From Neoroseomonas alkaliterrae (GTDB lineage: Bacteria > Pseudomonadota > Alphaproteobacteria > Acetobacterales > Acetobacteraceae): a DNA stretch of 64,000 nt. The translations under genes and the position numbers were made by a program. Where the stretch lies: assembly GCF_014199195.1 (NCBI RefSeq), contig NZ_JACIJE010000001.1:434001-498000 (forward strand), read 5' to 3'. Positions within the stretch are counted from its first letter, which is position 1. Each line of letters opens with the position of its first letter. The notes beneath the pieces are model-generated. The model searched no databases. It saw only the letters and a program-made list of their open reading frames with translations, and was not told the DNA's origin. Shown in pieces: positions 3,546 through 46,752 of the stretch.

Positions 3546-3644
3546 GGCCTCATGCCAGCGCGCGGGGTTGGTGGGGCGGCCGCGCGCGGAACCAAGCCCT
3601 GACACCCTGCGGACGAAGGATCGACCCTTGTCCGCGGGGCATCA
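3546..3644 (+). repeat. convergent-junction hairpin element, copy A (hairpin 1 deleted)
   Basis: This copy lies between trpS and the phoR-like gene. From left to right it has a collapsed remnant of hairpin 1 (CATGCCAGC), the conserved GC-rich linker beginning GCGCGCGGGGTTGGTGGGGC, and hairpin 2 at 3605-3639 with arms GCGGACGAAGG and CCCTTGTCCGC. Its right edge, read on the minus strand, is TGATGCC. The TGA there is the stop codon of the phoR-like gene (3642-3644). See copies B-E. Confidence 0.85.
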
Positions 3645-5030
3645 GGCGCCACCCGGCCACCACACGCGAAACGTCGTGCCCACGCCCTCCTCGCTCTCGA
3701 TCGCGAGCGTGCCGCGGTGGCGGTTGACGATGTGCTTGACGATGGCGAGGCCGAGTCCCGTCCCGCCCGCGCTGCGCGCCCGCGCCTTGTCCACGCGGTA
3801 GAAGCGTTCGGTCAGGCGCGGGATGTGCTCGCGCGGCACGCCGGGCCCGTCATCGGCCACGCTCAGCAGCACGCCCGCCCGTCCGTCGCGCCCCGGCGCG
3901 GCGGCGACGGCGAGGCGCACCTCGCCCCCCTGCCGCCCGTGGCGGATCGCGTTGTCGAGCAGGTTGCGCACCACCTGCGCCACCTGGTCGGGATCGGCCG
4001 GCGCGGCGATCGCGCGCTCCGGCGCCTCGATCGCGAGGCGCACCTGCCGCGCGGCGAGGAGCGGCGCCATGGCCTCCGCCTCGGCGCGCGCGATCAGCGC
4101 GACATCGGCGCTGCCCGAAGGCGCCTGGTGCTCGGTCATCTCGATGCGCGAGAGGCCGAGCAGATCGTCGATCAGCCGCCGCATCCGGTCCGACTGCTCG
4201 GCCATGATGCCGAGGAAGCGCTGCTGCGCCGCCGGGTCGTCCGCCGCCGGGCCGCGCAGGGTCTCGATGAAGCCGATCAGCGAGGCGAGCGGCGTGCGCA
4301 GCTCATGGCTCGCATTGGCGACGAAATCGGCGCGCATGCGCTCGACCGCGCGTTCCCGCGTGCGGTCGGAGAGGATCACGAGCAACCGTCCGCCATCGGC
4401 CAGCGGCGGGTCGAGCGGGATCGCCTGCGCCACGAGGTCGCGCAGCACCGGCACCGGCAGCACGAGGTCCGCCGAGGCCGGCGCGCCCGTGGCGAGCGCG
4501 CGGTCCAGCGCCTCGGCCAGCGCCGGGTGGCGCAGCAGGGCGGCGGCATCGGGCGGCGGCGCGCCGGCCTCCCCCGGCGTGCCGAGCATCTCGCGCCCCG
4601 CGCGGTTGGCGCGCAGCACCGCCCTCTCGGCCGAGAGCACCAGCAGCGGGTCGGGCAGCGCCTCGATGATGGCGGCATCGGCGCGGCGCAGCCGCTCCAC
4701 CAGCGCGCCGCGCTCGGCGAGGCTGCGCGCGAGCCGCGCCACCCCGTCCGCGACCTCCTGGACCGAGGGCAGCAGGAAGGTGCCGGAGAGGCTCGGCGCC
4801 TCGCCCCCCGCGGCGGCGGCGCGGATGCGCGCGGCGAGCCTCGCGAGGTTGCCGAGCCAGAGCCGCGCCACCAGCGCCGCGCCGGCCAGCGTCGCGAGCA
4901 GCGCGGCGAGGCCCGGCCGCGGCGCCAGCGCGCCGTTGGCCATCAGCAGCAGCAGCGCGGTGGCCGGCGCGGCGCCGACGACGAGGCTCGCGCGCAGCCA
5001 GGCCCCCGGGCGGGGGCCCTCGCCCGGCAT
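3642..5030 (-). CDS. PhoR-type sensor histidine kinase
   Basis: This is a 462-residue membrane histidine kinase. Two hydrophobic segments near the N-terminus (about 13-33 and 38-58) anchor it. A PAS-like region around 115-215 (IIEALPDPLLVLSAERAVLRAN) follows. The phospho-accepting H-box is NASHELRTPL with His242, and the ATPase has NLLDNAIRHG, DDGPGVP and GTGLGLAIVKHI. The arrangement matches PhoR, which senses phosphate status, but no phoB or pst genes are in the window, so the signal is inferred only from architecture. The start lies 6 bases after the LpoA-like stop, suggesting one operon. The TGA stop is the edge of repeat copy A. Confidence 0.85.
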   Translation of the reverse strand: MPGEGPRPGAWLRASLVVGAAPATALLLLMANGALAPRPGLAALLATLAGAALVARLWLGNLARLAARIRAAAAGGEAPSLSGTFLLPSVQEVADGVARLARSLAERGALVERLRRADAAIIEALPDPLLVLSAERAVLRANRAGREMLGTPGEAGAPPPDAAALLRHPALAEALDRALATGAPASADLVLPVPVLRDLVAQAIPLDPPLADGGRLLVILSDRTRERAVERMRADFVANASHELRTPLASLIGFIETLRGPAADDPAAQQRFLGIMAEQSDRMRRLIDDLLGLSRIEMTEHQAPSGSADVALIARAEAEAMAPLLAARQVRLAIEAPERAIAAPADPDQVAQVVRNLLDNAIRHGRQGGEVRLAVAAAPGRDGRAGVLLSVADDGPGVPREHIPRLTERFYRVDKARARSAGGTGLGLAIVKHIVNRHRGTLAIESEEGVGTTFRVWWPGGA

Positions 5031-10706: not shown

Positions 10707-11657
10707 ATGGCGGATCGCAGCGACCCATCGCGGAAGCGGCAGCCTTCGCTCTGCCTGCTGACGATCTCCCACGCACCGGATGTCGAGCGCTTCGCCCTGC
10801 TGCGCCATTCGCTGGAACTTTTCGCCCCCGGCTTCGAGCATGTGGCGGTCGTGCACACCGAGGACCTGCCGCTCTTCTCGGCGCGCTTCGGCGGCAGCCC
10901 GCGCCTGAGGCTGCTGCCGACCGCGGCCGTGCTGCCCGCGAAGGTGGAGCGCCAGCGGCGCTTCTGGGGCGGCCGCCCCGGGCGCTGGCTGCGCCATCTC
11001 GAGTGGCGCATCCCGTCCCATGCCCGGCTCTATTCGGGCTGGAAGCTGCAGCAGATCGCCAAGATCGAGGCGGCCGCGGAGCTCAGCGCCGACGCGGTGA
11101 TGTTCCTCGATTCCGACACCTTCCTGACCCATCCGCTGGTGCATGGGGATGTCTTCGACGGCGAGGGGCGGCTCCATCTGCGCGAATGCCCGGCGGAGAC
11201 CTACGAGGATTTCGCCTTCGAGGTCGGGCGCCAGATCCTCTTCCGCGGCCGGCTGACCGACCGGGCGGAGGCCTTCAACTACATCCTCCCGACGCCGCGC
11301 TTCCTGACGCGGACGGCCGCCACTCTGCGGTCGGCGCTGCGCGAGATGCACAAGGACTGGGTCCAAACCTACTACCGCACGGATTTTCCGGCCGAGTACA
11401 ACCTCCTTGGCCATGTCGCCCGGGCCATCGAGGGCTACGCCGGCTACGCGCCCGACCCGCGCAACAGGGACGACTGGGGCTACGACGTGAAGTTCCCGGA
11501 GCAGCTCGAGCCGGCCATCGCGCTGTGCGAGCAGGAGCAGGGCCGCCGGCAATTCTTCCTCGTGCAGTCGAACATGCGGATGCCGCCCGCCGATTACGTG
11601 CCACGGCTCCGGCGCATGATCGAGGCCTTGGCGCGGCGGCAGCCCGCCGCGGGCTGA
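10707..11657 (+). CDS. DUF6492-like glycosyltransferase-type protein
   Basis: This protein of about 316 residues resembles DUF6492, recognised from memory with moderate certainty. It has a nucleotide-sugar-transferase feel. LCLLTISHAPDVERFALLRHSL is near the N-terminus and the DxD-like motif AVMFLDSDTFLTHPL lies near residues 130-145. EYNLLGHVARAIEGYAGY and FFLVQSNMRMPP come later. No signal peptide or membrane segment is seen. The ATG at 10707 has GGGGAA upstream; an in-frame ATG at 10692 is an alternative. It sits between hisA and hisF on the opposite strand and is followed by repeat copy B, so it looks like an insertion into the his cluster. Confidence 0.7.
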   Translation: MADRSDPSRKRQPSLCLLTISHAPDVERFALLRHSLELFAPGFEHVAVVHTEDLPLFSARFGGSPRLRLLPTAAVLPAKVERQRRFWGGRPGRWLRHLEWRIPSHARLYSGWKLQQIAKIEAAAELSADAVMFLDSDTFLTHPLVHGDVFDGEGRLHLRECPAETYEDFAFEVGRQILFRGRLTDRAEAFNYILPTPRFLTRTAATLRSALREMHKDWVQTYYRTDFPAEYNLLGHVARAIEGYAGYAPDPRNRDDWGYDVKFPEQLEPAIALCEQEQGRRQFFLVQSNMRMPPADYVPRLRRMIEALARRQPAAG

Positions 11658-11782
11658 TACCCCGCGGACAAAGGATGGACCTTTGTCTGCAGGGTACCAG
11701 GATTTGCTTCCGCGCGCGGCCGCCCCACCAGCCCCGCGCGCCGTACCAGCGGGCGAAAGGTCAGACCTTTCGCCCGCTGATA
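11655..11782 (-). repeat. convergent-junction hairpin element, copy B
   Basis: This is a full copy between the DUF6492-like gene and hisA. Hairpin 2 is at 11658-11696 (17-base arms, 15 matches, loop ATGGA). The linker runs to 11743. Hairpin 1 is at 11744-11782 (17-base arms, 16 matches, loop TCAGA). The left edge TGATACC contains the TGA stop of the DUF6492-like gene. Confidence 0.9.
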
Positions 11783-11797
11783 TGAGGCGCGCCGCGC

Positions 11798-27493: not shown

Positions 27494-27909
27494 TGCCGCT
27501 CGACGAAGGCCCGGCCCGTGGCCTGCCGCCGCGGCCGCAGGCGCGCAACGTGCTGGGCGGCGCGCTGCTGCCCTGCTCGGTCGCGCCGGTGACCGGCTTC
27601 TTCCGCGACGGCTGCTGCAACACCGGGCCGGCCGACCACGGGCTGCATGTGGTCTGCGCGGAGATGACGGCGGGCTTCCTCGCCTTCAGCCAGGCGGCGG
27701 GCAACGACCTCTCGACGCCGGTGCCGGAATACGGGTTCGGCGGGCTGAAGCCGGGCGACCGCTGGTGCCTCTGCGCCGTGCGGTGGGAGGAGGCGCGGCT
27801 GGCCGGCTTCGCACCCCCGGTGCTGCTGGAGGCGACGCACGAGGCCGCCCTGGCGGTGTGCCGGCGCGAGGACCTCGAGGCGCATGCGCTGGACCTGACG
27901 CGCGACTGA
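27493..27909 (+). CDS. DUF2237 family protein
   Basis: This 138-residue protein matches the DUF2237 pattern along most of its length: [60 protein letters not shown] and [12 protein letters not shown]. The many conserved Cys and acidic residues suggest metal binding, but the function is unknown. It is translationally coupled to the DUF1674 gene. Its TGA stop is the first three bases of repeat copy C. Confidence 0.9.
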
Positions 27910-28034
27910 TGCCCTGCGGACGAAGGATGAACCTTGGCCCGCAGGACATCAGGATCCGGTCCCGCGTGCGGCCGCGCCACCAGCCCCGCGCGCCAGAGCA
28001 GCGGGTGAAAGGTCAAGTCTTTCGCCCGCTGGCA
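27907..28034 (-). repeat. convergent-junction hairpin element, copy C
   Basis: This copy is between the DUF2237 gene and the hybrid kinase. Hairpin 2 is at about 27909-27950 (GCGGACGAAGG with CCTTGGCCCGC). The linker is slightly diverged. Hairpin 1 is at about 27994-28034 (GCGGGTGAAAGG with GTCTTTCGCCCGC). The left edge TGATGCC gives the stop of the DUF2237 gene. The 150 bases from 28035 to 28186 hold nothing recognisable. Confidence 0.85.
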
Positions 28035-28186
28035 TGCGGCAGCACGACGCATTCGGCGCAACCATCGGCTCGCGGCCGCGCCGCGCGCCGGGAGCGCAAG
28101 GCGCCACCGCGCCCTGATCGGCCGCTTTCCCCGGCGCGCCGCCGCATGGCGCGAAGGCAGGGGCCGCATCCGCGGGATGTAAACCC

Positions 28187-34971: not shown

Positions 34972-36018
34972 ATGATGAGCGCCACCGGTGAATACAGCAC
35001 CGCGAGCAAGGCGCCCGCGCCGCCCGCCGGGCCCGGGCGCGCCCTCGGCCGCCGCCCCCTCCTCGCCGCCCTCGCGGCCGCGGGCTGCGCCCCCGCCCGC
35101 GCGCCGATGGGCCCGCCCGTCGCCGAGCCCTCCATCACCGGCGAGTTCCTCGTCATGGCCGATGGCGTGCGCCTGCCATTCCACGCCTGGCTGCCCCCCT
35201 CCCCGCCGCAGGCGGTGGTGCTCGGCCTGCACGGCATGAACGAGCACGCCCGCGCCTTCCTCGAGGACGCCGCGCCCTGGTTCGCCGCCGAGGGCATCGC
35301 GCTCTACGGCTACGACCAGCGCGGCTTCGGCGCGGCACCCCATCGCGGCATCTGGGCCGGGCACGCGACCATGGCCGCGGATGCGGGGCAGGCGGCGCGG
35401 CTGATCCGCGCCCGCCATCCCGGCGTGCCGCTGGTGATGATGGGCGAGAGCATGGGCGGCGCGGTGCTGCTGGTGGCCGGCGCCGGGCCCGCGCCGCCGC
35501 CGGCCGACGGCTATGTGCTGCTCGCCCCGGCGGTGGTCGGGCGCGCGGATCTCGGCTGGCTCGCGCGCGGGCTGCTCGACGTGCTGGTCACGCTGGTGCC
35601 GGTCATGGGCTTCGAGAACTCCGCCCCCGGCTTCATGCCCACCGACAACATCGAGGCCCTGCGCCGCTGGTCGCGCGATCCGCTGCTGCTCCGCCACACG
35701 CGGGTGGATGCGCTGGCGGGCCTCGTCGAGCTGATGGATGCCGCGGTCGCCGCCGCGCCGGGCTTCGAGCCACCGGCGCTGCTGCTCTATGGCGGGCGGG
35801 ACCGGCTGGTGCCGGCGCGGCCGACCCGCGCGCTGCTCGCGCGCCTGCCCGCGCCGGAGCGCCAGCGCCCCGGCTTCTATCCGCGCGGCCACCACATGCT
35901 GCTGCGCGACCTGCAGGGCGAGACGGTGGCGCACGACATCGCCACCTGGGCGAAGGACCGCCGGGCGCGGCTGCCCTCGGGCGCCGAGGAGGCGGCGCGC
36001 GCCTGGCTCGCGGCGTGA
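34972..36018 (+). CDS. alpha/beta hydrolase lipoprotein (monoglyceride-lipase-like)
   Basis: This is a 348-residue hydrolase. An N-terminal segment GRRPLLAALAAAGCAPARAP has a lipobox (AAGC), possibly with a Tat-like RR, suggesting a membrane-anchored exported enzyme. The catalytic triad is Ser in MMGESMGGAVLL, Asp in LLYGGRDRLVPA and His in RGHHMLLRDLQG. LGLHGMNEHARAF holds the oxyanion region. The family includes monoacylglycerol lipases. The ATG at 34972 or 34975 starts it. It is coupled to the next gene by a GTGA overlap. Confidence 0.9.
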   Translation: MMSATGEYSTASKAPAPPAGPGRALGRRPLLAALAAAGCAPARAPMGPPVAEPSITGEFLVMADGVRLPFHAWLPPSPPQAVVLGLHGMNEHARAFLEDAAPWFAAEGIALYGYDQRGFGAAPHRGIWAGHATMAADAGQAARLIRARHPGVPLVMMGESMGGAVLLVAGAGPAPPPADGYVLLAPAVVGRADLGWLARGLLDVLVTLVPVMGFENSAPGFMPTDNIEALRRWSRDPLLLRHTRVDALAGLVELMDAAVAAAPGFEPPALLLYGGRDRLVPARPTRALLARLPAPERQRPGFYPRGHHMLLRDLQGETVAHDIATWAKDRRARLPSGAEEAARAWLAA

Positions 36019-36689
36019 GTCGGGGCGAGGCCGGGGCGCGCCCGCCGCCCTTCCTCGGCCATGACGGCGCGATCACCCTGCTCGCCGCGCTCGCGGTGGC
36101 CGCGCTCAGCCTCGGCATGGGGCCGCTGGCCGCGGCGCTGGCGGTGCGGCGCACGGCCCGGGACGCGCCCCTCGCCCCCGCAGCCGAGCCGGCGCGCATC
36201 CTGGTCCTGGGCCACCGGCTGGAGGCGGGCAGGCCCTCGGCCGCATTCGTCGCCCGCCTCGCCCGCGCGCTGGACCTCGCGCGGGCGCATCCGGGCGCGC
36301 AGGTGCTGGTGCTGGGGGGCGCGACCTCTCCCGGCGCGCCGGCCGAGGCGGAGATCGGCCGCGCCTGGCTGCTCGCCCACGGGCTGCCGGCGGGGCGGAT
36401 CGGCGTCGAGACGACCTCCCGCCACACGCTCGAGAACCTGCGCCATCATCGCGCGGCGGGGCATGGGCCGGGCGTCGAGGCGCTGGTGACCAGCCGGCTG
36501 CACCTGCATCGCGCGCTGCTGATGGCGCGCGGCCTCGGCCTCGCGCCGCTGCCGGTGGCGGCGGAGCCGGCGCTGCCGCGCGCGCCGCTGCGCCTTGCCG
36601 CCGAGGGCTTCATGGTGCTGTGGTACCTGACCGGGCGATGGCTCGCGCGCGCGCTGCGGCGCCGCGCCTGGCTGGCGCGGATCGGTTGA
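36015..36689 (+). CDS. YdcF-family (DUF218) protein
   Basis: This 224-residue protein has one N-terminal membrane segment (about 20-42) and the DUF218 domain: RILVLGHRLEAGRPSAAFVA, QVLVLGGATSPGAPAEAEIG and GVETTSRHTLENLRHHR. YdcF/SanA relatives act at the cell envelope, and the exact activity is unknown. A GTG start overlaps the upstream hydrolase stop by 4 bases. A second hydrophobic region lies near 200. Confidence 0.88.
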   Translation: MSRGEAGARPPPFLGHDGAITLLAALAVAALSLGMGPLAAALAVRRTARDAPLAPAAEPARILVLGHRLEAGRPSAAFVARLARALDLARAHPGAQVLVLGGATSPGAPAEAEIGRAWLLAHGLPAGRIGVETTSRHTLENLRHHRAAGHGPGVEALVTSRLHLHRALLMARGLGLAPLPVAAEPALPRAPLRLAAEGFMVLWYLTGRWLARALRRRAWLARIG

Positions 36690-36768
36690 TCCGCCGCAAG
36701 GCCAAGCGGCGCGGTCCGGGGCATGTCCCGGCGAGCCCGCCCGGGCGGGAAGAACGCAAGGAAGGCAG

Positions 36769-37149
36769 ATGAAAAGACGGACTCTTGTCGTCGCGGGGCC
36801 GGCGGTGCTGGCGGCGCTCGCGCTCGGGGCCTGCACGGCGCCGATCTACAACGTGCCGGGCCGCCGCTTCGATTCGCCCGCGCCCTTCGAGGCCCGCGCC
36901 GAGCAGATCCGCCGCGCCGCCGCCGGCCTCGGCTGGCAGACGGACCTGGTCCGCCCGGGCGTGATGCGCGCCACGCTGAACCTGCGCAGCCACGTCGCCG
37001 TGGTCGAGATCACCTACAGCGCGGACGCCTTCGCCATCCGCTACGTGGACAGCCGCAACCTGCAATACGACGGCAGCAGCATCCACAAGAACTACAATGG
37101 CTGGATCCAGAACCTCGAACGCGCCATCGCGCAGCAGCCGGTGAGCTGA
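36769..37149 (+). CDS. small lipoprotein, paralogue 1
   Basis: This is a 126-residue lipoprotein with lipobox ALALGAC (Cys near residue 22). The mature part aligns with the lipoprotein at 39487-39885: AEQIRRAAAGLGWQTDLVRP, GVMRATLNLRSHVAVVEITY, FAIRYVDSRNLQYDGSSIHK and YNGWIQNLERAI. I do not recognise a named family. The fold looks like a small alpha/beta domain. The ATG is preceded by AAGGAAGGC. The stop TGA is the edge of repeat copy D. Confidence 0.82.
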   Translation: MKRRTLVVAGPAVLAALALGACTAPIYNVPGRRFDSPAPFEARAEQIRRAAAGLGWQTDLVRPGVMRATLNLRSHVAVVEITYSADAFAIRYVDSRNLQYDGSSIHKNYNGWIQNLERAIAQQPVS

Positions 37150-37276
37150 TACCAGCGGGCGAAGGGTTCGACCTTTCGCCCGCTGGTATCGCGCGCGGGG
37201 CTGGTGGGGCGGCCGCGCGCGGAACCAGATCCTCATGCCCTGCGGACAAAGGTCGATCCTTTGTCCACAGGGCATG
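37147..37276 (+). repeat. convergent-junction hairpin element, copy D (best preserved)
   Basis: Hairpin 1 is at 37148-37190 (19-base arms, 18 matches, loop TTCGA). A middle hairpin has GCGCGCGG (37191-37198) with CCGCGCGC (37213-37220). Hairpin 2 is at 37234-37276 (19-base arms, 18 matches, loop TCGAT). The left edge TGATACC supplies the stop of the lipoprotein gene. Here the flanking gene abuts hairpin 1, unlike copies A, B, C and E. Confidence 0.92.
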
Positions 37277-37319
37277 AGCGCCCGCCCGCGCGCCGCCCGC
37301 GCCGCGCGGGGGCGCCTCG

Positions 37320-38657
37320 TCAGCCCGCCGTCGCCGGCGCCGGTGCGGGCGCGCGCGGCATCCGCACGAGCCCGTCCGGCCCCAGCCGGTAGCCGAAGCG
37401 GCGGGCGATGGTCAGCGCGCGATAGGCGGCCTTGAAGGCGAGGACCGGCACCTGCCGGTCCGGGTGCGCATGCACGTCTCCCGCCAGCAGGCTGATCAGG
37501 CCACGCTTCATGTTGAAGCGGTTGCTCGGCCACATGAACATGTCGCGCAGCACCGGCGTGTTGATGCGGTAGATCAGCCAGGAGAGCGAGCCGATCGCGC
37601 GCTTGACCTTCCGCTCGAAGGTGCGGGCCATCGCGGCCGCGCGCGCGGGGTCGTCGAGCCAGGTGTCGGCGACCTCCGATCCCATCTCCGCGCTCGCCAT
37701 CGCGAGCAGCACGCCCGAGGAGAACACCGGGTCGATGAAGGCATAGGCGTCGCCGGCCATCAGCCAGCCATCCCCCTGCATCACCTTCGCGGCGTAGGAG
37801 TAGTTGCCGGTGGTGGTGACCTCGCTGATCAGCTCGGCCCGCGCGATCCGCCGCGCGACCGAGGGCACGCTTTTCAGCGTCGAGAGGAAGAAGGCCTCCA
37901 CGCTGCCGCGCCGCCGCTTGAAGAAGGCGGGGTTGGAGACGACGCCGATGCTCATGACCCCGCCGGTCAGCGGGATCATCCAGAACCAGCCCTCGTCGAA
38001 GAGATGGACGGTGATGTTGCCGTCCTCCTCCTCGCCGAAGGGCGCGACGCCGCGGAAATGGCCGTAGATCGCGGCGGTGTTGTTGTGCGGGTTGCGCGCC
38101 TTGGTCCCCATCGCGGTGGCGAGGAAGGTGTCGCGGCCGGAGCAGTCCATCAGGAAGCGGGGGCGGAAATGCAGCATCGCCCCGTCCTCCGCGCGCGCCG
38201 TGACGCGGTGCCCGCCTCTCGCGTCGAGCGCGACATCGAGCACCCGCACCCCCTCGCGCGCATCGGCCCCGGCCTCGCGGGCGCGGGCGAAGAGGGCCTC
38301 GTCGAACTCGCTGCGGCGGACCTGGTAGGAATAGGTGAAGTCCGGGTTGAGCCCCTCGGCGAAGGAGAAGGCGGTGTGCTTGCCGTGCTCGTCCGAGACG
38401 AAGCGTGCGCCCGGCTTGTGCACCCCGATCGCGGCGATGCGGTCCGACACGCCGAGCCTGTGGAAGATCCGCAGGTTCAGCGGCAGCAGGCTCTCCCCGA
38501 TGTGGAAGCGCGGATGGCGGTCCTTCTCGAGCATCACGACGTGGCGGCCCTTCTCGGCCAGCAGCGTCGCGGCGGTCGAGCCGGCGGGGCCGCCGCCGAT
38601 GATCAGCACGTCGCAGCGGGTTTCGTCGGGCAGGTCACGCGAGGCGTCGAGCGGCAT
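37320..38657 (-). CDS. flavin-dependent halogenase-like FAD oxidoreductase
   Basis: This is a 445-residue FAD protein. The Rossmann motif is VLIIGGGPAGSTAATLLAEK at 18-37, followed by RFHIGESLLP. It has features of flavin-dependent halogenases of the phenolic/aliphatic type: a candidate catalytic Lys81 in GVHKPGARFV, the WxWxIP motif as WFWMIP at 224-229, and FIDPVFSSGVLLAM at about 307-320. Related geranylgeranyl-reductase-like and epoxidase-like enzymes share the first motif but not usually WxWxIP. No flavin reductase or biosynthetic cluster is adjacent, so halogenation is plausible but unproven. Confidence 0.8.
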   Translation of the reverse strand: MPLDASRDLPDETRCDVLIIGGGPAGSTAATLLAEKGRHVVMLEKDRHPRFHIGESLLPLNLRIFHRLGVSDRIAAIGVHKPGARFVSDEHGKHTAFSFAEGLNPDFTYSYQVRRSEFDEALFARAREAGADAREGVRVLDVALDARGGHRVTARAEDGAMLHFRPRFLMDCSGRDTFLATAMGTKARNPHNNTAAIYGHFRGVAPFGEEEDGNITVHLFDEGWFWMIPLTGGVMSIGVVSNPAFFKRRRGSVEAFFLSTLKSVPSVARRIARAELISEVTTTGNYSYAAKVMQGDGWLMAGDAYAFIDPVFSSGVLLAMASAEMGSEVADTWLDDPARAAAMARTFERKVKRAIGSLSWLIYRINTPVLRDMFMWPSNRFNMKRGLISLLAGDVHAHPDRQVPVLAFKAAYRALTIARRFGYRLGPDGLVRMPRAPAPAPATAG

Positions 38658-38689
38658 GGACACTGGTCCGGATGCTGTGGGGCGGTAGG

Positions 38690-39490
38690 ATGCGCCTTCA
38701 TACCAGCCGGGCCGCCGTGACCGAAACATCAACCTCGCCCCCGGGGCCGCTCGTCGTCGTGGTGCCCGCCTACCAGGAGGCGGCGACCATCGCCGGCGTG
38801 GTCGCAGGCCTGCGCGCCGCCGCCCCCGGCGTGCCGGTGCTGGTGGTGGATGACGGCTCGACCGACGGCACCGCCTCGGCCGCGGCGGCGGCGGGGGCCG
38901 AGGTGCTCGCCAGCCCGGCCAACGAGGGCAAGGGGGCGGCGCTGCGGCGGGGGATGCGCGCCGCGCTCGCCCGCGGGGCGGGGCTGGTCGCGACGCTCGA
39001 CGGGGACGGGCAGCACCGCCCGCAGGACCTGCCGCGCCTGCTCGCCCTCGCCCGGGCCGACCGCATCGTGATCGGCTCGCGCCGCGGCGCGCCCGGCCAG
39101 CCCGCGGCCCGGCGCCGGGCGAACCGGGTGGCGGATTTCTGGATCTCCTGGGCCGCGCGCCACCCGGTCGCCGACAGCCAGTCCGGCTTCCGCATCTACC
39201 CCGCCGCCGCGCTCGCGGGGCTCGACCGCTACGAGGGCCGCGCCCGGCGCTTCTCCTTCGAGAGTGAGATCCTGATCGACGCCGCGCGCGCGGGCATCAC
39301 CACCGTCGCGGCGGAGATCCCTGCCCTCTATGGCGAAACCCTTCGGCGGCGGAGCCATTTCAGACCCGTTGCGGATATCGCGCGTATCGTGATCATGGTG
39401 GCCGGCAAACTTCTGGCCCGGGGCATGGACCCGGCCGGACTGGTGCGGAGCCTCGCCCCGGCCCGGCGCAGCGACAGGGAGGGTGGATGA
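38690..39490 (+). CDS. glycosyltransferase family 2
   Basis: This protein of about 266 residues resembles dolichyl/polyprenyl-phosphate sugar synthases. VVVVPAYQEAATIAGVVAGL and VLVVDDGSTDGTASAA bind the nucleotide sugar. LDGDGQHRPQDLPRLLALA has the DxD. RFSFESEILIDAARAGI and VAAEIPALYG complete it. No transmembrane segment is clear except a weak one near the end. The start is uncertain (ATG 38672, ATG 38690 or GTG 38717). It is coupled to the downstream lipoprotein by an ATGA overlap. Confidence 0.88.
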   Translation: MRLHTSRAAVTETSTSPPGPLVVVVPAYQEAATIAGVVAGLRAAAPGVPVLVVDDGSTDGTASAAAAAGAEVLASPANEGKGAALRRGMRAALARGAGLVATLDGDGQHRPQDLPRLLALARADRIVIGSRRGAPGQPAARRRANRVADFWISWAARHPVADSQSGFRIYPAAALAGLDRYEGRARRFSFESEILIDAARAGITTVAAEIPALYGETLRRRSHFRPVADIARIVIMVAGKLLARGMDPAGLVRSLAPARRSDREGG

Positions 39491-39885
39491 TGCTTGCTCG
39501 TCGTGATGTGCTGCGGCGCGGGATGCCGGTGCTGGTCGCCCTGGGCGGCGGCATCGGCCTCGGCGCCTGCCGCGCCCAGCCGATCTACCAGAGCACCGGC
39601 GCGCAATTCCCCGGCCGGGGCAACCTCGCCGAGCGCGAGGCGCAGATCCGCCGCGCCGCCGCCAGCCAGGGCGGCTGGCACCTCCAGTCCATCCGGCCCG
39701 GGTTGCTGCGCGGCACCAACACCTGGCGCAGCCACCAGATGACGGTGGACATCGCCTTCGACGTGCGCGGCTTCTCCATCACCTATGTGAACAGCGTCAA
39801 CCTGGACTACAGCGGCGGGCAGATCCACAGCGCCTACAACGACCGCGTCCGGGCGCTGGAATCGGCGATCCTGCGCGGCGCGTGA
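39487..39885 (+). CDS. small lipoprotein, paralogue 2
   Basis: This is a 132-residue protein with twin arginines (ARRDVLRRG) and a lipobox GIGLGAC. It is a paralogue of the lipoprotein at 36769-37149. Shared blocks include AQIRRAAASQGGWHLQSIRP, GLLRGTNTWRSHQMTVDIAF, SITYVNSVNLDYSGGQIHSAYN and RALESAI. The start overlaps the glycosyltransferase stop by 4 bases. The function is unknown. Position suggests a role with the envelope glycosyltransferase. Confidence 0.82.
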   Translation: MMLARRDVLRRGMPVLVALGGGIGLGACRAQPIYQSTGAQFPGRGNLAEREAQIRRAAASQGGWHLQSIRPGLLRGTNTWRSHQMTVDIAFDVRGFSITYVNSVNLDYSGGQIHSAYNDRVRALESAILRGA

Positions 39886-39925
39886 CGGCCGGCCGCGCCC
39901 GTTCCGGCGGGCGCGGGGCCGGCGC

Positions 39926-40141
39926 TCAGCCCTTCACGGCGTAGCCTTCCTCCTCCACCGCCATCGAGACGACATGGCGGGGCAGGGCCGTCTCGGCCTT
40001 CACCGTGCCGTCGGCGAGGTCCACCACCACCTTCGCGTCCGGGTCCTTCGCCTGGATCGCGGCGGTCACCGCCTTCACGCAATGGCCGCAGGACATGCCC
40101 TCCACCTTCAGCGTGATGGTCGGGCCTTCGGGCTTGCTCAT
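39926..40141 (-). CDS. copZ: CopZ-like copper chaperone (heavy-metal-associated domain)
   Basis: This is a 71-residue single HMA domain. The metal motif GMSCGHC has Cys18 and Cys21, and VEGMSCGHCVKAVTAAIQ is the typical helix. It carries Cu(I) to the CopA ATPase. It is the last gene of the copA-cueR-copZ operon, 4 bases after cueR. Confidence 0.93.
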   Translation of the reverse strand: MSKPEGPTITLKVEGMSCGHCVKAVTAAIQAKDPDAKVVVDLADGTVKAETALPRHVVSMAVEEEGYAVKG

Positions 40142-40145
40142 CGGT

Positions 40146-40531
40146 TCAGTCCTTCCGTGCGAGGTCGTCGAGGATGGGGCAGTCGGGGCGGTCATCCCCG
40201 TGGCAATGGGCGGCGAGGTGGCGCAGGCTCGCGGCCATGCGGCGGAGCGAATCGGCCTTGCTCTCCAGCGCGGCGACATGCGCCAGCGCAAGCCGCTTCA
40301 CCTCGGCCGAGGCGCGATTGCGATCCTGCCACAGCGCGAGCAGCCGGCGCACGTCCTCGAGCGGGAAGCCGAGGTCGCGGGCATGGCGGATGAAGCGCAG
40401 CACGGCGACGTCGCGCTCGCCATAGACGCGGTAGCCGTTGGCGCTGCGCACCGCGCCGATCAGGCCGATCGCCTCGTAGTGGCGGATCATCTTGGCGCTC
40501 ACGCCCGAGCGCGCGGCGGCCTCGCCGATGT

Positions 40532-40535
<4 letters not shown>
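40146..40535 (-). CDS. cueR: CueR-type MerR-family copper regulator
   Basis: This 129-residue activator has the MerR HTH MNIGEAAARSGVSAKMIRHY and YEAIGLIGAVRSANGYRVY. The metal loop CHGDDRPDCPILDDL has Cys111 and Cys119 at the CueR positions, and the serine near residue 76 (NRASAEVKRL) is typical of sensors of monovalent copper/silver. The start overlaps the copA stop by 4 bases. It probably acts at the operator before copA (42917-42935). Confidence 0.94.
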
Positions 40536-42901
<2,366 letters not shown>

Positions 42902-42908
42902 GGAGGGC

Positions 42909-42939
42909 GATCTGGCCCTTCCCAATATGGGAAGGTCAA
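42909..42939 (-). promoter_or_regulatory. CueR operator and promoter of copA
   Basis: The palindrome CCTTCCCAATATGGGAAGG (42917-42935) has 7-base arms and a 5-base centre, as in CueR boxes. On the minus strand, -35 TTGACC (42939-42934) is followed after 19 bases by a weak -10 CAGATC (42914-42909). The 19-bp spacer is typical of MerR-activated promoters. Confidence 0.85.
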
Positions 42940-42985
42940 GGCCCGCCGATTGACACCGCGCGGCGGCGAAGCGACATGCGCTGTC

Positions 42986-43339
42986 ATGCGGCATCGTATC
43001 GTCGTCGCGCTGGCGCTGGCCCTCGGCGCCGGCCAGGCCTTCGCGCAGAACGAACCCTTCCGCATCGCCAACCGCGCGGGCGAGGCGGCGACCGCGCTGC
43101 ACATCGTGCGCAGCGGCACGGCGGAATGGGGCGGCAACATCCTGCGCGGCCCGCTCGGCTCCGGGGAGCTCTTCGCGCTGCGCGCGCCCGAGGGTGCCGG
43201 CTGCCGCTTCGACATCCGCCTCGTGCTGCAATCGGGCCGGGAATCCGTCCGCCGCGGGGTGGATGTCTGCCAGGAGCGGACGGTCGCCATGGCCGAGGAG
43301 TTCGGCCCGGTGGCGCCGGCCGCGCGCGGCCCGCGCTGA
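42986..43339 (+). CDS. secreted single-domain protein related to N-terminal domain of the next protease
   Basis: This 117-residue protein has a signal peptide (about 1-20, ending AFAQ) and one domain: EPFRIANRAGEAATALHIVR, SGTAEWGGNILRGPLGSGEL and GAGCRFDIRLVLQSGRE. The same domain, at high identity, forms the N-terminus of the protease encoded 53 bases downstream. It has two Cys that may form a disulfide. The pattern (NRT..., W-G-N-x-L, C-x-F/Y-D-x-R) recalls a widespread small beta-domain without a name known to me. It is divergent from copA across the CueR operator. Confidence 0.78.
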   Translation: MRHRIVVALALALGAGQAFAQNEPFRIANRAGEAATALHIVRSGTAEWGGNILRGPLGSGELFALRAPEGAGCRFDIRLVLQSGRESVRRGVDVCQERTVAMAEEFGPVAPAARGPR

Positions 43340-43392
43340 TCCGGCGCGATGGCGATTGACGGCGGCCGGCCGGCTGCCGACATGCTGAGGCC

Positions 43393-44499
43393 ATGAGATC
43401 CTTCGCCCTGCCCGCGGCCCTCGCGCTGGCGCTCGCCGCGCCGGCGGCCTTCGCGCAGTCCGAGCCCTTCCGCGTGGTCAACCGGACGCCGGAGGCGGCG
43501 GTGGCGCTGCATGCGGTGCGCAGCGGGCGGCAGGACTGGGGCGGCAACCTGCTCAACCGCGGGCCGCTCGGCCCCGGCGGGCAATTCGCGCTGCGCCCGG
43601 CCGAGGGCGCGGGCTGCGCCTTCGACCTGCGGATGGTGCTGCGCGACGGGCAGGAGATCGTCCGCCGCAACGCCGACATCTGCGCCGAGCGCACGGTGGT
43701 CATGGCGCTGCCGCCGCAGGCCCTGCTGCCGCCGCAGGCCGCGCGGCCGCCGGTCGCGGCGCCGGGCGGCGGCCTGCCGGGCGCCAAGCCGCCGGCCCTC
43801 GGCCCCTCCGAGGCCGGCGCGCGCCCCGCGCCGCCGCCCGCCGCGGGCGCGCGGCCCAACCCGCAGGCGCGCGTCGCCTCGGGCACCGGCTTCGTCGTCG
43901 CGCCCGAGCGGGTGCTGACCAACCAGCATGTCATCGAGGGCTGCAGCCGGCTCTTCGTCCGCACCGCCGAGAACCGGATGCTGCCGGTGGTCGAGGTGCA
44001 GGGGCATGACGCGGTGCGCGACCTCGCGCTGCTGCGCGTGCAGGGCAACCCAGGGCCGGTGCTCGCCTTCCGCGCCAATCCGGTGCGCCGGGGGGAGGGC
44101 GTCGTGACCTATGGATTCCCGCTGGCGGGCCTGCTCTCCTCGGGGCCGACGCTGACGACGGGCGAGGTCAGCGCGCTGGCCGGCCTCGGCGACAACCAGC
44201 AGCAGTTCCAGATCAGCGCGCCGGTGCAGCAGGGCAATTCGGGCGGGCCGCTGCTCGACCGCCAGGGCCATGTCATCGGCGTCGTCGTCTCCAAGCTGAA
44301 TGCCGCGCGCATCGCCCAGCGCACCGGCGACATCCCTCAGAACGTGAACTTCGCGGTGAAGGGGACCGAGGCGGTGGCCTTCCTGCGCCGCCACGGCGTG
44401 ACCCCCGTGATGCGCGAGAGCCAGGGCGCCGAGCGCAGCGCCGCCGAGGTGGGCGAGCAGGCGCACCCCTCCACCGTCTTCATCCGCTGCGAGCGGTAG
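43393..44499 (+). CDS. periplasmic trypsin-like serine protease with N-terminal accessory domain
   Basis: This is a 368-residue exported protease. The signal peptide ends AAFAQ at about 22. An accessory domain (24-105, EPFRVVNRTPEAAVALHAVR) is the same as the stand-alone protein upstream. A Pro/Ala-rich linker runs 106-158. The trypsin-2 domain has His179 in VLTNQHVIEGC, Asp210 in DAVRDLALLRV and Ser283 in QGNSGGPLLD. There is no PDZ domain, unlike HtrA/DegP. The accessory domain may direct localisation or regulate the protease. Confidence 0.88.
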   Translation: MRSFALPAALALALAAPAAFAQSEPFRVVNRTPEAAVALHAVRSGRQDWGGNLLNRGPLGPGGQFALRPAEGAGCAFDLRMVLRDGQEIVRRNADICAERTVVMALPPQALLPPQAARPPVAAPGGGLPGAKPPALGPSEAGARPAPPPAAGARPNPQARVASGTGFVVAPERVLTNQHVIEGCSRLFVRTAENRMLPVVEVQGHDAVRDLALLRVQGNPGPVLAFRANPVRRGEGVVTYGFPLAGLLSSGPTLTTGEVSALAGLGDNQQQFQISAPVQQGNSGGPLLDRQGHVIGVVVSKLNAARIAQRTGDIPQNVNFAVKGTEAVAFLRRHGVTPVMRESQGAERSAAEVGEQAHPSTVFIRCER

Positions 44500-44607
44500 G
44501 CGCGATGGCGGCGGGCGGGGGGTTCGGCCCGTCCTCCGCCGGCATCGCGCGCGGGGCCGCAAGGCCGATGCCCGGCGGCTGAGGGCGGCCCCGACCGGCG
44601 GGGATCA

Positions 44608-44735
44608 CGCCAGCGGGCGAAAGGTTTGGCCTTTCACCCTCTGCTATGGCGCGCGGGGCTGGTGGGGCGGCCGCGCGCGGAACCAGATCCTGATGCCCTG
44701 CGCGCAAAGGTTGATCCTTTGTCCGCAGGGTATCA
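44608..44735 (+). repeat. convergent-junction hairpin element, copy E
   Basis: This copy lies between the protease and the exonuclease gene. Hairpin 1 (about 44605-44646) is decayed on its right arm. The linker GCGCGCGGGGCTGGTGGGGC is intact. Hairpin 2 is at 44692-44734. The right edge, on the minus strand TGATACC, supplies the stop (44733-44735) of the exonuclease gene. The stretch 44500-44604 is GC-rich with short inverted repeats and no gene. Confidence 0.88.
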
Positions 44736-45539
44736 GCCCCCGGCGAGCCGCGCCGCCGCCTCCCGATGCGCGGCGAAGGCGGGGGCGGGGCGATGCTCCG
44801 CGAGGAAGGCGGCGAAGCCGGCGAAGGACTGCCGCGCCGCATCGCCCGGCAGCGCGCCGGTCGCCTGCCAGTAGCGCAGCGCCAGCAGCCAGGTCGCGGC
44901 GACATCCGTCTCGCAGTATTCGGCGACCGCGGCGCCGCGGCCCGCCGCCATGGCGGGCTCGACCTCCGCACCGTCCATCCCGGCCTTGGCGGTCAGGCCG
45001 ATCAGCGCGCAGGCCTCGGCCAGCGAGGGCATGGGCGAGGCGCGGAAGCCCGAGAGCCGGTCCGCGAGGTCGAGATGGTCGCGCCCGTAGCGATAGCCGT
45101 AGTCCCGCCCATTGGCCCCGTGGAGCGAGGGCATCGCCACCCCGGTCGCGATCGCGCGGTAGCGCAGCACCGGCAGGTCGAAGCCCGAGGTGTTGAAGCC
45201 CACGAGCAGCGGCGCCGGGCGCTGGGCGATGCTCCGCTCGAACAGGGCCAGGATCTCGGCCTCCGCCGTCTCGCCGACATGCCGCGCGGCCATGCGGCGC
45301 ACGCGCCAGGGCTCCTCCGCGCCGTCGCGCTCGGCGACCAGCAGCGCGAGGCAGGCCAGCGCATGCAGCGGCGGCTTGAGGAAGGCGGTGGCGGGGTCCT
45401 GGCCGTCCCGCGCCTGGCGGGCGCCGAGGCGGGCGCGCAGCGCGGCATCGTCCAGCCCCTCGGCGGCCTCGCCCAGCAGGGCGCGGCCGGCGGCGAGGTC
45501 GGGGACGGTCTCGATGTCGAAGGCGACGGCGCGTTCCAT
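44733..45539 (-). CDS. predicted 3'-5' exonuclease (PolB-related DEDD family)
   Basis: This is a 268-residue protein with the DEDD exonuclease motif I AFDIETVPD (Asp8, Glu10), motif II LLVGFNTSGFDLPVLRYRAI, and motif III AEYCETDVAATWLLALRY. It matches the predicted PolB-like 3'-5' exonuclease family seen as a stand-alone protein. A role in DNA repair or RNA processing is likely but untested. Its TGA stop is supplied by repeat copy E. It follows the MFS gene on the same strand, separated by terminator-like hairpins. Confidence 0.88.
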   Translation of the reverse strand: MERAVAFDIETVPDLAAGRALLGEAAEGLDDAALRARLGARQARDGQDPATAFLKPPLHALACLALLVAERDGAEEPWRVRRMAARHVGETAEAEILALFERSIAQRPAPLLVGFNTSGFDLPVLRYRAIATGVAMPSLHGANGRDYGYRYGRDHLDLADRLSGFRASPMPSLAEACALIGLTAKAGMDGAEVEPAMAAGRGAAVAEYCETDVAATWLLALRYWQATGALPGDAARQSFAGFAAFLAEHRPAPAFAAHREAAARLAGG

Positions 45540-45562
45540 GGGCGGGAGTATGGCGGGAAAGC

Positions 45563-45618
45563 GGGAGGGGCGCCGCCCCTCCCGAAACCCACCCCGCCGA
45601 GGGCCGGAAGGCCCTCGG
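45563..45618 (-). terminator. two terminator-like hairpins after the MFS gene
   Basis: On the minus strand, downstream of the MFS stop, CCGAGGGCC (45597-45605) pairs with GGCCCTCGG (45610-45618) with a 4-base loop. Then GGGAGGGGCG (45563-45572) pairs with CGCCCCTCCC (45574-45583). There is no long U-tract. They probably end the catabolic operon. Confidence 0.6.
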
Positions 45619-45624
45619 AACCCG

Positions 45625-46752
45625 TCACCGGCGCAGCAGCAGGGCCAGCAGCGCGCAGAACAGCGCGAGGGCGAGCCAGAACCCCGTCAGCGCGGCCGGC
45701 GCGCCGAAGGCGTCCACCGCCAGGCCCGTGAGAAGCGGCGGGATGCAGAAGCCGGCATGGGCGACCAGGAACACGCCGGCGGCGGCGCGCGCACGGTCCT
45801 CGCCCGAGGCGGCCTCCGACGCCGCCGCCAGCGCGCCGACGAACAGGAAGCCATAGGCCGCGCTGCCGACCAGCGCGCCGCCGGCCAGCAGCAGGGCCGG
45901 CGAGGCGGCGAGCGTGCCCAGGACCACCAGCCCCGCCCCGGCGGCGAGCACGGGCAGCCCGATCAGCGAAAGCCGCCGCGCCGGCAGCTGCCCGATCGCC
46001 TGCTGCACCGCCGTGCCGACCAGGATCATGAAGCACACCGCGAGCGGCCCGAGGCGCGGATGCCCCGCCGCCGCCAGCGCCGAGGGCACGGAGGTGATCG
46101 CCACCCCGGTCACCCCCCAGGCGGCGAACATGCCGAAGGAGGAGGCGACGGTGCCGCGCGGGAAGGCCGGCACGCGCAGCCAGGCGACGCGCTCGCGCGG
46201 GCGGCGGTCGGGCAGGCGCGCGACCACCGGGATCAGCACCGCCACCGCGGCGATGTGCAGCCAGAAGGTCAACGGCGGCTCGCCATCCCCGAGCAGCCAC
46301 AGCGCGCCGAGCGTGGCGAGCCCGCCCGCGGCATAGGACCCCGCCGTGCCGAAGGCGGTGACGCGCGCCGCCCGCCGCCCCGCCTCCGGCCCGCCGGCCA
46401 GTTCCGCCGCCCAGGCCGTCGCGCCGCCGGCGATCAGGCCGATCGCCAGGCCCTGCAGCGCCCGCGCGACGGCGAGCGCGGCAAGCCCGGGCGCGAGGAT
46501 CAGCGCCAGCGTGGACAGCCCCGCCAGCGCCAGCCCCGCCAGCACGCAGGGCCTGCGCCCGATGCGGTCGGACAGCCCGCCGAGCAGCGGCGCGGTGACG
46601 ATCAGCGTCGCCGCATAGGCGATGAAGGCGAGCGCGAGACCGCCCGCGCCGCCGCCCTCCCGCGCCGCATAGGCGGTGAAGAGCGGCATGGCGAGGGTGG
46701 TGGAGAAGCCGATGGCGAAGACCGCGGCGCCGACCGCCGCGACGCCGCTCAC
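45625..46752 (-). CDS. MFS transporter
   Basis: This 375-residue protein has about 12 membrane segments, with GGLSDRIGRRPCVLAGLALA as the loop 2-3 signature and RGTVASSFGMFAAWGVTGVA in the second half. A GTG start at 46752 overlaps the GMC gene stop (GTGA). It closes a leftward operon and could export or import the product or substrate of the neighbouring oxidoreductases. The substrate cannot be read. Confidence 0.88.
   Translation of the reverse strand: MSGVAAVGAAVFAIGFSTTLAMPLFTAYAAREGGGAGGLALAFIAYAATLIVTAPLLGGLSDRIGRRPCVLAGLALAGLSTLALILAPGLAALAVARALQGLAIGLIAGGATAWAAELAGGPEAGRRAARVTAFGTAGSYAAGGLATLGALWLLGDGEPPLTFWLHIAAVAVLIPVVARLPDRRPRERVAWLRVPAFPRGTVASSFGMFAAWGVTGVAITSVPSALAAAGHPRLGPLAVCFMILVGTAVQQAIGQLPARRLSLIGLPVLAAGAGLVVLGTLAASPALLLAGGALVGSAAYGFLFVGALAAASEAASGEDRARAAAGVFLVAHAGFCIPPLLTGLAVDAFGAPAALTGFWLALALFCALLALLLRR

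Follow-up and report, generated by a model that had tools for sequence, protein, structure and literature searches.

Bru-RS and RIME repeats of rhizobia and their relatives are palindromic and lie between genes. The CIR elements are the CcrM-associated intergenic repeats of Caulobacter that Chen and Shapiro described in 2003, and the MIRU repeats of mycobacteria reportedly insert at TGA stop sites and reportedly lie in same-strand operons. The element described here shares with MIRU the reported TGA stop sites and differs from the same-strand operon location reported for MIRU. It is likened to Bru-RS and RIME by description, being of similar length, palindromic and intergenic; Bru-RS repeats measure 103-105 bp according to the available part of their account (PMC2267715). 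In the available parts of the CIR accounts, CIR has two long arms, a linker, a length of approximately 110 bp and a GANTC site, and its mobility is called unresolved (PMC2229807; PMC10969869). REPs are defined by GTAG or CGTC tags in an account that is likewise available in part; according to it, flanking genes often take a TAG stop from the end of a GTAG REP, and CGTC repeats are missing in Acetobacteraceae (PMC3733652). Among insertion sequences, the IS1031 subgroup of the IS5 family makes a 3-bp TNA target duplication, and the example described in the available portion of the source was inserted at TGA (PMC12016507). No description of the present element family was recognised among the papers listed in searches of the open-licence literature.

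The window is the whole stretch of Neoroseomonas alkaliterrae DNA that was analysed, 64,000 nucleotides long. Five copies of the repeat exist in the window and fold as hairpins, as the first-pass annotation had stated, and their bounds are corrected here by including both outermost triplets. Three hairpins had been assigned to all five copies; this description holds for four of them, the copy at 3550-3644 being a short form without the first hairpin arm. The copies, with their corrected bounds, are as follows.

3550-3644, plus strand: short copy that lacks arm 1 and measures 92 bp from triplet to triplet, with triplets TCA/TCA; TCA at 3642-3644 is the stop of the minus-strand gene at 3642-5030.
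11655-11785, minus strand: full-length copy with TGA at each end on the plus strand; TGA at 11655-11657 is the stop of the plus-strand gene ending at 11657.
27907-28037, minus strand: full-length copy; TGA at 27907-27909 is the stop of the plus-strand gene ending at 27909, and the free triplet has decayed to TGC (plus strand).
37147-37277, plus strand: full-length copy, triplets TGA/TGA included; TGA at 37147-37149, on the hairpin-1 side, is the stop of the plus-strand gene ending at 37149.
44605-44735, plus strand: full-length copy with triplets TCA/TCA; TCA at 44733-44735, on the hairpin-2 side, is the TGA stop, on the minus strand, of the gene at 44733-45539.

In all five copies an outermost triplet is thus the stop codon of a flanking gene, a feature absent from the first-pass annotation.

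A covariance model of the repeat was built from 20 copies of the N. alkaliterrae genome. Searching with it yielded at least 89 non-overlapping places in the genome, 82 with E below 1e-5 and 7 of the 89 listed with E between 1e-5 and 0.11. If up to 3 mismatches are allowed, the middle hairpin is matched at 43 places in the 4.24-Mb genome, compared to 0 for a reversed control. Rfam gave 0 matches at the gathering score on either strand of the window. The unit reads TNA[TRCC...GGYA]TNA, where the outer triplets form a 3-bp direct repeat, and its length from triplet to triplet is 128 bp in the full form and 88-92 bp in the short form. Copies range from 71 to 144 bp, and they are short, non-coding and numerous, as is characteristic of MITEs. 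The short form (88 or 92 bp) accounts for seven copies in the genome, nos. 37, 46, 49, 53, 56, 58 and 79 of the own-genome set, one such form being the window copy at 3550-3644. Six of the seven have identical flanking triplets, all TCA, and the seventh has the unequal pair TGA/TCG. Since short copies without arm 1 carry matching triplets, arm 1 is either dispensable for some insertions or was lost in a founder copy, and these copies speak against a need for both arms. The short form may be mobile by itself.

Each of the described families resembles the element in part. GTAG and CGTC REPs, as far as the available part of their account describes them, are also short palindromes downstream of genes, mostly in same-strand and convergent gaps (PMC3733652). 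Unlike these REPs, the element has other end tags, no RAYT-type gene, a target duplication, and TGA or TAA rather than TAG. Its ends read TNA-TRCC and GGYA-TNA in the alignments, with neither a GTAG nor a CGTC tag. Given that GTAG REPs often supply TAG, according to that partly available account, an element end serving as a stop is already known; what differs is the duplication and the TGA/TAA target. The first-pass annotation had called the family REP/BIME-like. It is indeed dispersed, palindromic, similar to REP/BIME in appearance and enriched at convergent junctions, but membership in REP is contradicted by its end tags, by the lack of a Y1 transposase match in this genome and by the target duplication. 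CIR elements are like it in being approximately 110-130 bp long, intergenic and present in many copies in alphaproteobacteria, with two long palindromic arms and a linker (PMC2229807, available in part). The linker of the element, in contrast, holds a conserved core hairpin, and the CIR accounts mention neither TNA duplication nor a stop target in the parts available. The element shares the CIR plan, a likeness judged from descriptions, so we do not file it as CIR. It shows the combination of TNA target and 3-bp duplication that marks the IS1031 subgroup (rule in the available part of PMC12016507). However, the terminal repeat quoted for IS1031 is unlike the TRCC ends by eye, and the description of an IS1031-derived MITE, in the part of that source available, includes neither palindromic arms nor a conserved core, both of which the element possesses (PMC12016507). 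MITE/CIR-like in kind, it is a mobile hairpin element with two arms and with stop codons as its target.

Stop codons are found at the element ends well beyond the window. To see this, 75 stretches surrounding the copies were given gene calls based on codon usage, the caller having been trained on the N. alkaliterrae genome. An element end is exactly the stop codon of the neighbouring gene in 68 of the 89 listed copies (approximately three quarters), and the remaining 21 do not lie at a called stop. The hairpin-2 end coincides with a flanking stop at one constant offset in 59 of the 89 listed copies, and the hairpin-1 end does so in 13, 12 of them at one offset. In ten other genomes, 19 of 34 copies lie at a called stop, a count that may be too low for other genera because the gene caller was trained on the N. 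alkaliterrae genome. The gene-facing end differs by genus: it is mostly hairpin 2 in the N. alkaliterrae genome (59 versus 13) and hairpin 1 in 18 of the 19 stop-fused copies among those of the ten other genomes (L297-L336).

The outer triplets of the N. alkaliterrae copies are TCA/TCA, TGA/TGA or TAA/TAA direct repeats. Where a full-length copy has a T.A triplet at each end, the two are identical in 21 of 21 cases, compared to a mean of 12.0 and a maximum of 19 when the right ends were permuted (20,000 permutations). Adding the short copies gives 32 identical pairs among 35 clear copies (mean 21.6 and maximum 30 under permutation). A sample of 40 further copies came from ten other Acetobacteraceae genomes; after 6 of the 40 without T.A at both ends were left out, the triplets are identical in 29 of 34 (permutation mean 18.9, maximum 27), namely TGA (22), TAA (6) and TTA (1). 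No bonus for equality entered the choice of ends for the counts 21/21, 32/35 and 29/34. In a separate set with equal triplets in 31 of 40, the choice of ends favoured equality, and that set is hence not independent. Unequal triplets occur in 3 of 35 clear copies in the N. alkaliterrae genome and in 5 of 34 in the ten others, where some such loci lie near contig ends. A triplet that serves as a stop stays intact, and the free triplet is often mutated. As read from the alignments, the matching outer triplets are the signature of target site duplication, which is also the mark of a MITE. Movement is shown directly in genome G017, where two copies differing at one base carry TAA/TAA and TTA/TTA.

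Loci without the element in congeners provide a second line of evidence. At the 37147 locus, 12 regions were compared and 6 gave both flanks; the element is absent in these six congeners (G079, G080, G062, G069, G074 and G075), and the gene stops at the same codon or within approximately one codon. At the 44605 locus, likewise an empty site in congeners, 8 regions were compared and 4 gave both flanks; in G062 and G068 the alignment begins at the first base of the stop, and in G072 and G074 it begins 13 bases further in. A wider survey used the last 220 bases of 14 stop-fused genes as queries for orthologues in 12 congeners. Its first 70 loci (30 chosen automatically and 40 mostly picked for matches reaching the gene end) include 68 that stop at the same codon (62 TGA, 5 TAG, 1 TAA) and 68 in which the core is absent within 250 bp. 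A further 20 loci were picked for matches not reaching the gene end, countering the selection of the first set; 8 of these stop at the same codon and 18 within five codons, and all 20 are without the core. Combined, the 90 orthologues, which were drawn from a longer list and cover 13 of the 14 query genes (none for copy 5), have the same stop codon in 76 cases and a stop within five codons in 88, and the core is absent within 250 bp in 88. Since congeners without the element stop at the same or a near codon, the element entered existing stops and did not create them. The aligned orthologues show that insertion left the protein essentially unchanged, with the stop regenerated. Two of the 90 loci were flagged for a core. 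At one, a diverged core-bearing element with different arms was found beside the same stop as an N. alkaliterrae element (L270, genome G070, approximately 540-700); it is either an old shared site or an independent insertion. At the other, L242, a six-error core match has no visible element ends and is probably due to chance.

The best explanation of the repeat is that it is mobile but non-autonomous and enters existing stops of the CTGA type, duplicating three bases and regenerating the stop, a reading to which we give a probability of about 0.8. Against it count the conserved end sequence, which is very short for a transposon, the failure to find an autonomous element or transposase with these ends in this genome, the part that motif choice plays in the stop preference, the clear copies with unequal triplets, and the 21 listed copies that do not lie at a called stop. 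Under this reading, what was presumed to be a terminator repeat is an insertion that follows a clear rule, in which TNA is duplicated over 3 bp, in most cases at a stop codon, and the protein is unchanged. The same stop codons at element ends and the same palindromic arms would be expected if no transposition had occurred and the hairpins had evolved in place as 3' ends beside stops, the matching triplets being pairing partners. This alternative is hardly credible, as the two triplets of a unit repeat each other directly from its two ends, instead of facing each other within one hairpin, and they vary together (TCA, TGA, TAA, TTA). At least 89 places in one genome share the sequence, orthologous junctions are mostly without the whole unit, and evolution in place is already contradicted by these empty sites.

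Under the preferred reading of insertion at existing stops, the bases around the target can be considered. C precedes the stop at 59 of the 68 fused sites, versus 417 of the 688 TGA stops that the same stretches contain, and G follows it at 38 of 68 versus 268 of 688. The excess of C before and G after fused stops suggests an insertion target of roughly C-TNA-G. If only stops and non-coding DNA are considered, the share of stops is 0.32 for TNA, 0.51 for CTGA and 0.61 for CTNAG sites. Copies lie at stops in 68 of 83 cases (the 89 listed copies minus 6 without a TNA triplet), compared with 0.61 for CTNAG sites, and these expected fractions are slightly too low since element-bearing stops were masked from the background. 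The preference for stops is thus partly accounted for: choice of motif and loss of genic insertions explain much of it, and some remains, attributable to selection or true recognition. Stop codons would be safe places for insertion where a genome is GC-rich and densely packed with genes, and the element is a case of mobile DNA multiplying in such a genome with little harm.

The element would be moved by a transposase acting in trans through a 3-bp staggered cut at roughly C-TNA-G, and the enzyme may belong to the IS5 family and be IS1031-like. No parent insertion sequence or autonomous element with the ends of the element was found in the N. alkaliterrae genome. Three PF01609 (DDE_Tnp_1, IS5-like) matches are present in this genome (C1:780-1178, C23:279-692 and C33:812-1246; L216-L218), and the TNATRCC motif is absent from the DNA examined around them. 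All three lie within 1.3 kb of a contig start and may be repeats at which the assembly broke. Movement as a single strand, by a hairpin-reading Y1 transposase of the REP-associated type, was also considered, as arm pairing is kept where arm sequence differs between lineages. We judge it very unlikely. The RAYT-type Y1 family (PF01797) has 0 matches in the N. alkaliterrae genome, which is rated 100% complete, compared to matches in 5 of 14 control genomes, although an extinct or very diverged enzyme would escape such a search. The matching 3-bp direct repeats stand against it as well, since IS200/IS605-type transposition makes no target duplication according to the available part of its description (PMC2817692). 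An origin from REP/RAYT elements was accordingly rejected on the lack of a Y1 match, the matching direct repeats and the ends without a GTAG or CGTC tag.

The first-pass annotation counted 13 convergent gene pairs in the window, five of them holding a copy, and codon-usage gene calls give the same numbers. It had further placed the repeat only between convergent genes, and this does not hold across the genome, where the 89 listed copies comprise 60 in convergent gaps, 27 in same-strand gaps, 1 in a divergent gap and 1 at the edge of a contig. The annotation had named copies equally common in same-strand gaps as evidence against a terminator, and this was not found; the exclusivity to convergent gaps nevertheless fails. 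Convergent gaps hold 60 of the 89 listed copies, whereas 134 of 800 neighbouring gene pairs are convergent in the stretches with gene calls, a background that is centred on the copies. The element occupies 52 of 268 stops that have a convergent neighbour, versus 16 of 537 that have a same-strand one. Divided by gap length, the occupied stops (convergent versus same-strand) are 19/67 versus 1/216 under 20 bp, 12/50 versus 2/79 at 20-60 bp, 9/59 versus 1/94 at 60-120 bp, 4/50 versus 5/88 at 120-250 bp, and 8/42 versus 7/60 over 250 bp. The convergent bias is largest in tight gaps and small in wide ones, as removal from operons predicts, and selection purging copies from operons would produce such a bias. 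The near-absence from tight same-strand gaps is compatible with a polar or terminating effect, and also with simple insertional harm.

The first-pass annotation took the family to be REP/BIME-like repeats acting as bidirectional terminators and placed between convergent genes by that function. The hairpins are strong and GC-rich, and the occupation of convergent stops together with nearly empty tight same-strand gaps agrees with such a role. We nevertheless consider it unlikely. A T-rich tract (at least 5 T in 7) directly after either arm, on either strand, was found in 0 of 29 well-preserved copies, and a terminator scan of 36000-46000 flagged neither of the two copies there, so a canonical intrinsic terminator is unsupported. 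Moreover, 27 of the 89 listed copies are in same-strand gaps, occupation rates converge where genes lie far apart, and insertion at stops already explains the position. The arms may secondarily stabilise or end transcripts. As a warning for similar cases, repeats at convergent junctions may reflect insertion choice and selection and not the evolution of terminators.

The first-pass annotation described the arms of the window copies as complementary at nearly every position. Compensatory change in the arms is strong across lineages but weak among the 20 N. alkaliterrae copies. Within those 20 copies, 9 pairs changed on both sides versus 6.5 when shuffled, a value reached in 74 of 500 shuffles. 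A cross-lineage alignment took one copy from each of 19 records. Its 22 outer arm pairs have a pairing of 91.4%, and changes on both sides affect 15 pairs and 91 cells, the latter versus 30.9 when shuffled (reached in 0 of 500) and at most 33 when slid. Among 18 lineage representatives, the arm interiors have an identity of 0.49 versus 0.46 shuffled, and the core hairpin 0.91 versus 0.69, the core value being partly a result of selection since the elements were found via the core. As candidate terminal inverted repeats, TRCC/GGYA stand at both ends; further in, the ends are alike but imperfect within the N. alkaliterrae genome and differ between lineages. The alignments show that across Acetobacteraceae the core hairpin keeps its sequence and the outer arms mainly their pairing and the TRCC/GGYA end. 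This is a strong natural case of arm sequence turning over with pairing kept. The arms might be kept palindromic because movement requires the DNA or RNA in its folded state. A transposition system that recognises its ends mainly by the shape of the folded arms and by the conserved core, instead of by a fixed end sequence, with the stop codon as its natural target, is possible though doubtful, and it may explain the spread of CIR-type repeats in alphaproteobacteria. If such a system is true, lineage-specific arms would still fold, and the duplication at a stop would be a gene-safe landing rule. The element also gives a route to the mobility of two-armed alphaproteobacterial repeats.

The model built from the N. 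alkaliterrae genome has a match at E of at most 0.01 in 24 of 60 Acetobacteraceae genomes, and several congeners have many matches. A class-wide search of 385 genomes with model R2 matched only the N. alkaliterrae genome at E of at most 1e-4, which is a weak negative as 8 candidates were scored per genome; a few Acetobacteraceae members included in that set gave no match. A plasmid collection searched with the core of the L034 copy had no match. One rhizobial-type linker motif was found in 0 of 240 genomes, a negative that concerns that motif alone. An exact scan for the core in named genomes returned 12 stretches, which belong to species of Neoroseomonas and Roseomonas, to Elioraea, and to metagenome bins of Acetobacteraceae and alphaproteobacteria. 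Contigs of N. alba, N. eburnea, N. soli and R. rubea contain copies of the congeners G060, G062, G074 and G075 without a single difference, in keeping with an origin of the window in that genus. With respect to the GANTC (CcrM-type) site of CIR, the N. alkaliterrae representative copy has none, whereas such sites are present in 10 of the 18 lineage representatives (L033, L034, L040, L051 and others), often in the arm-1 loop or the linker.
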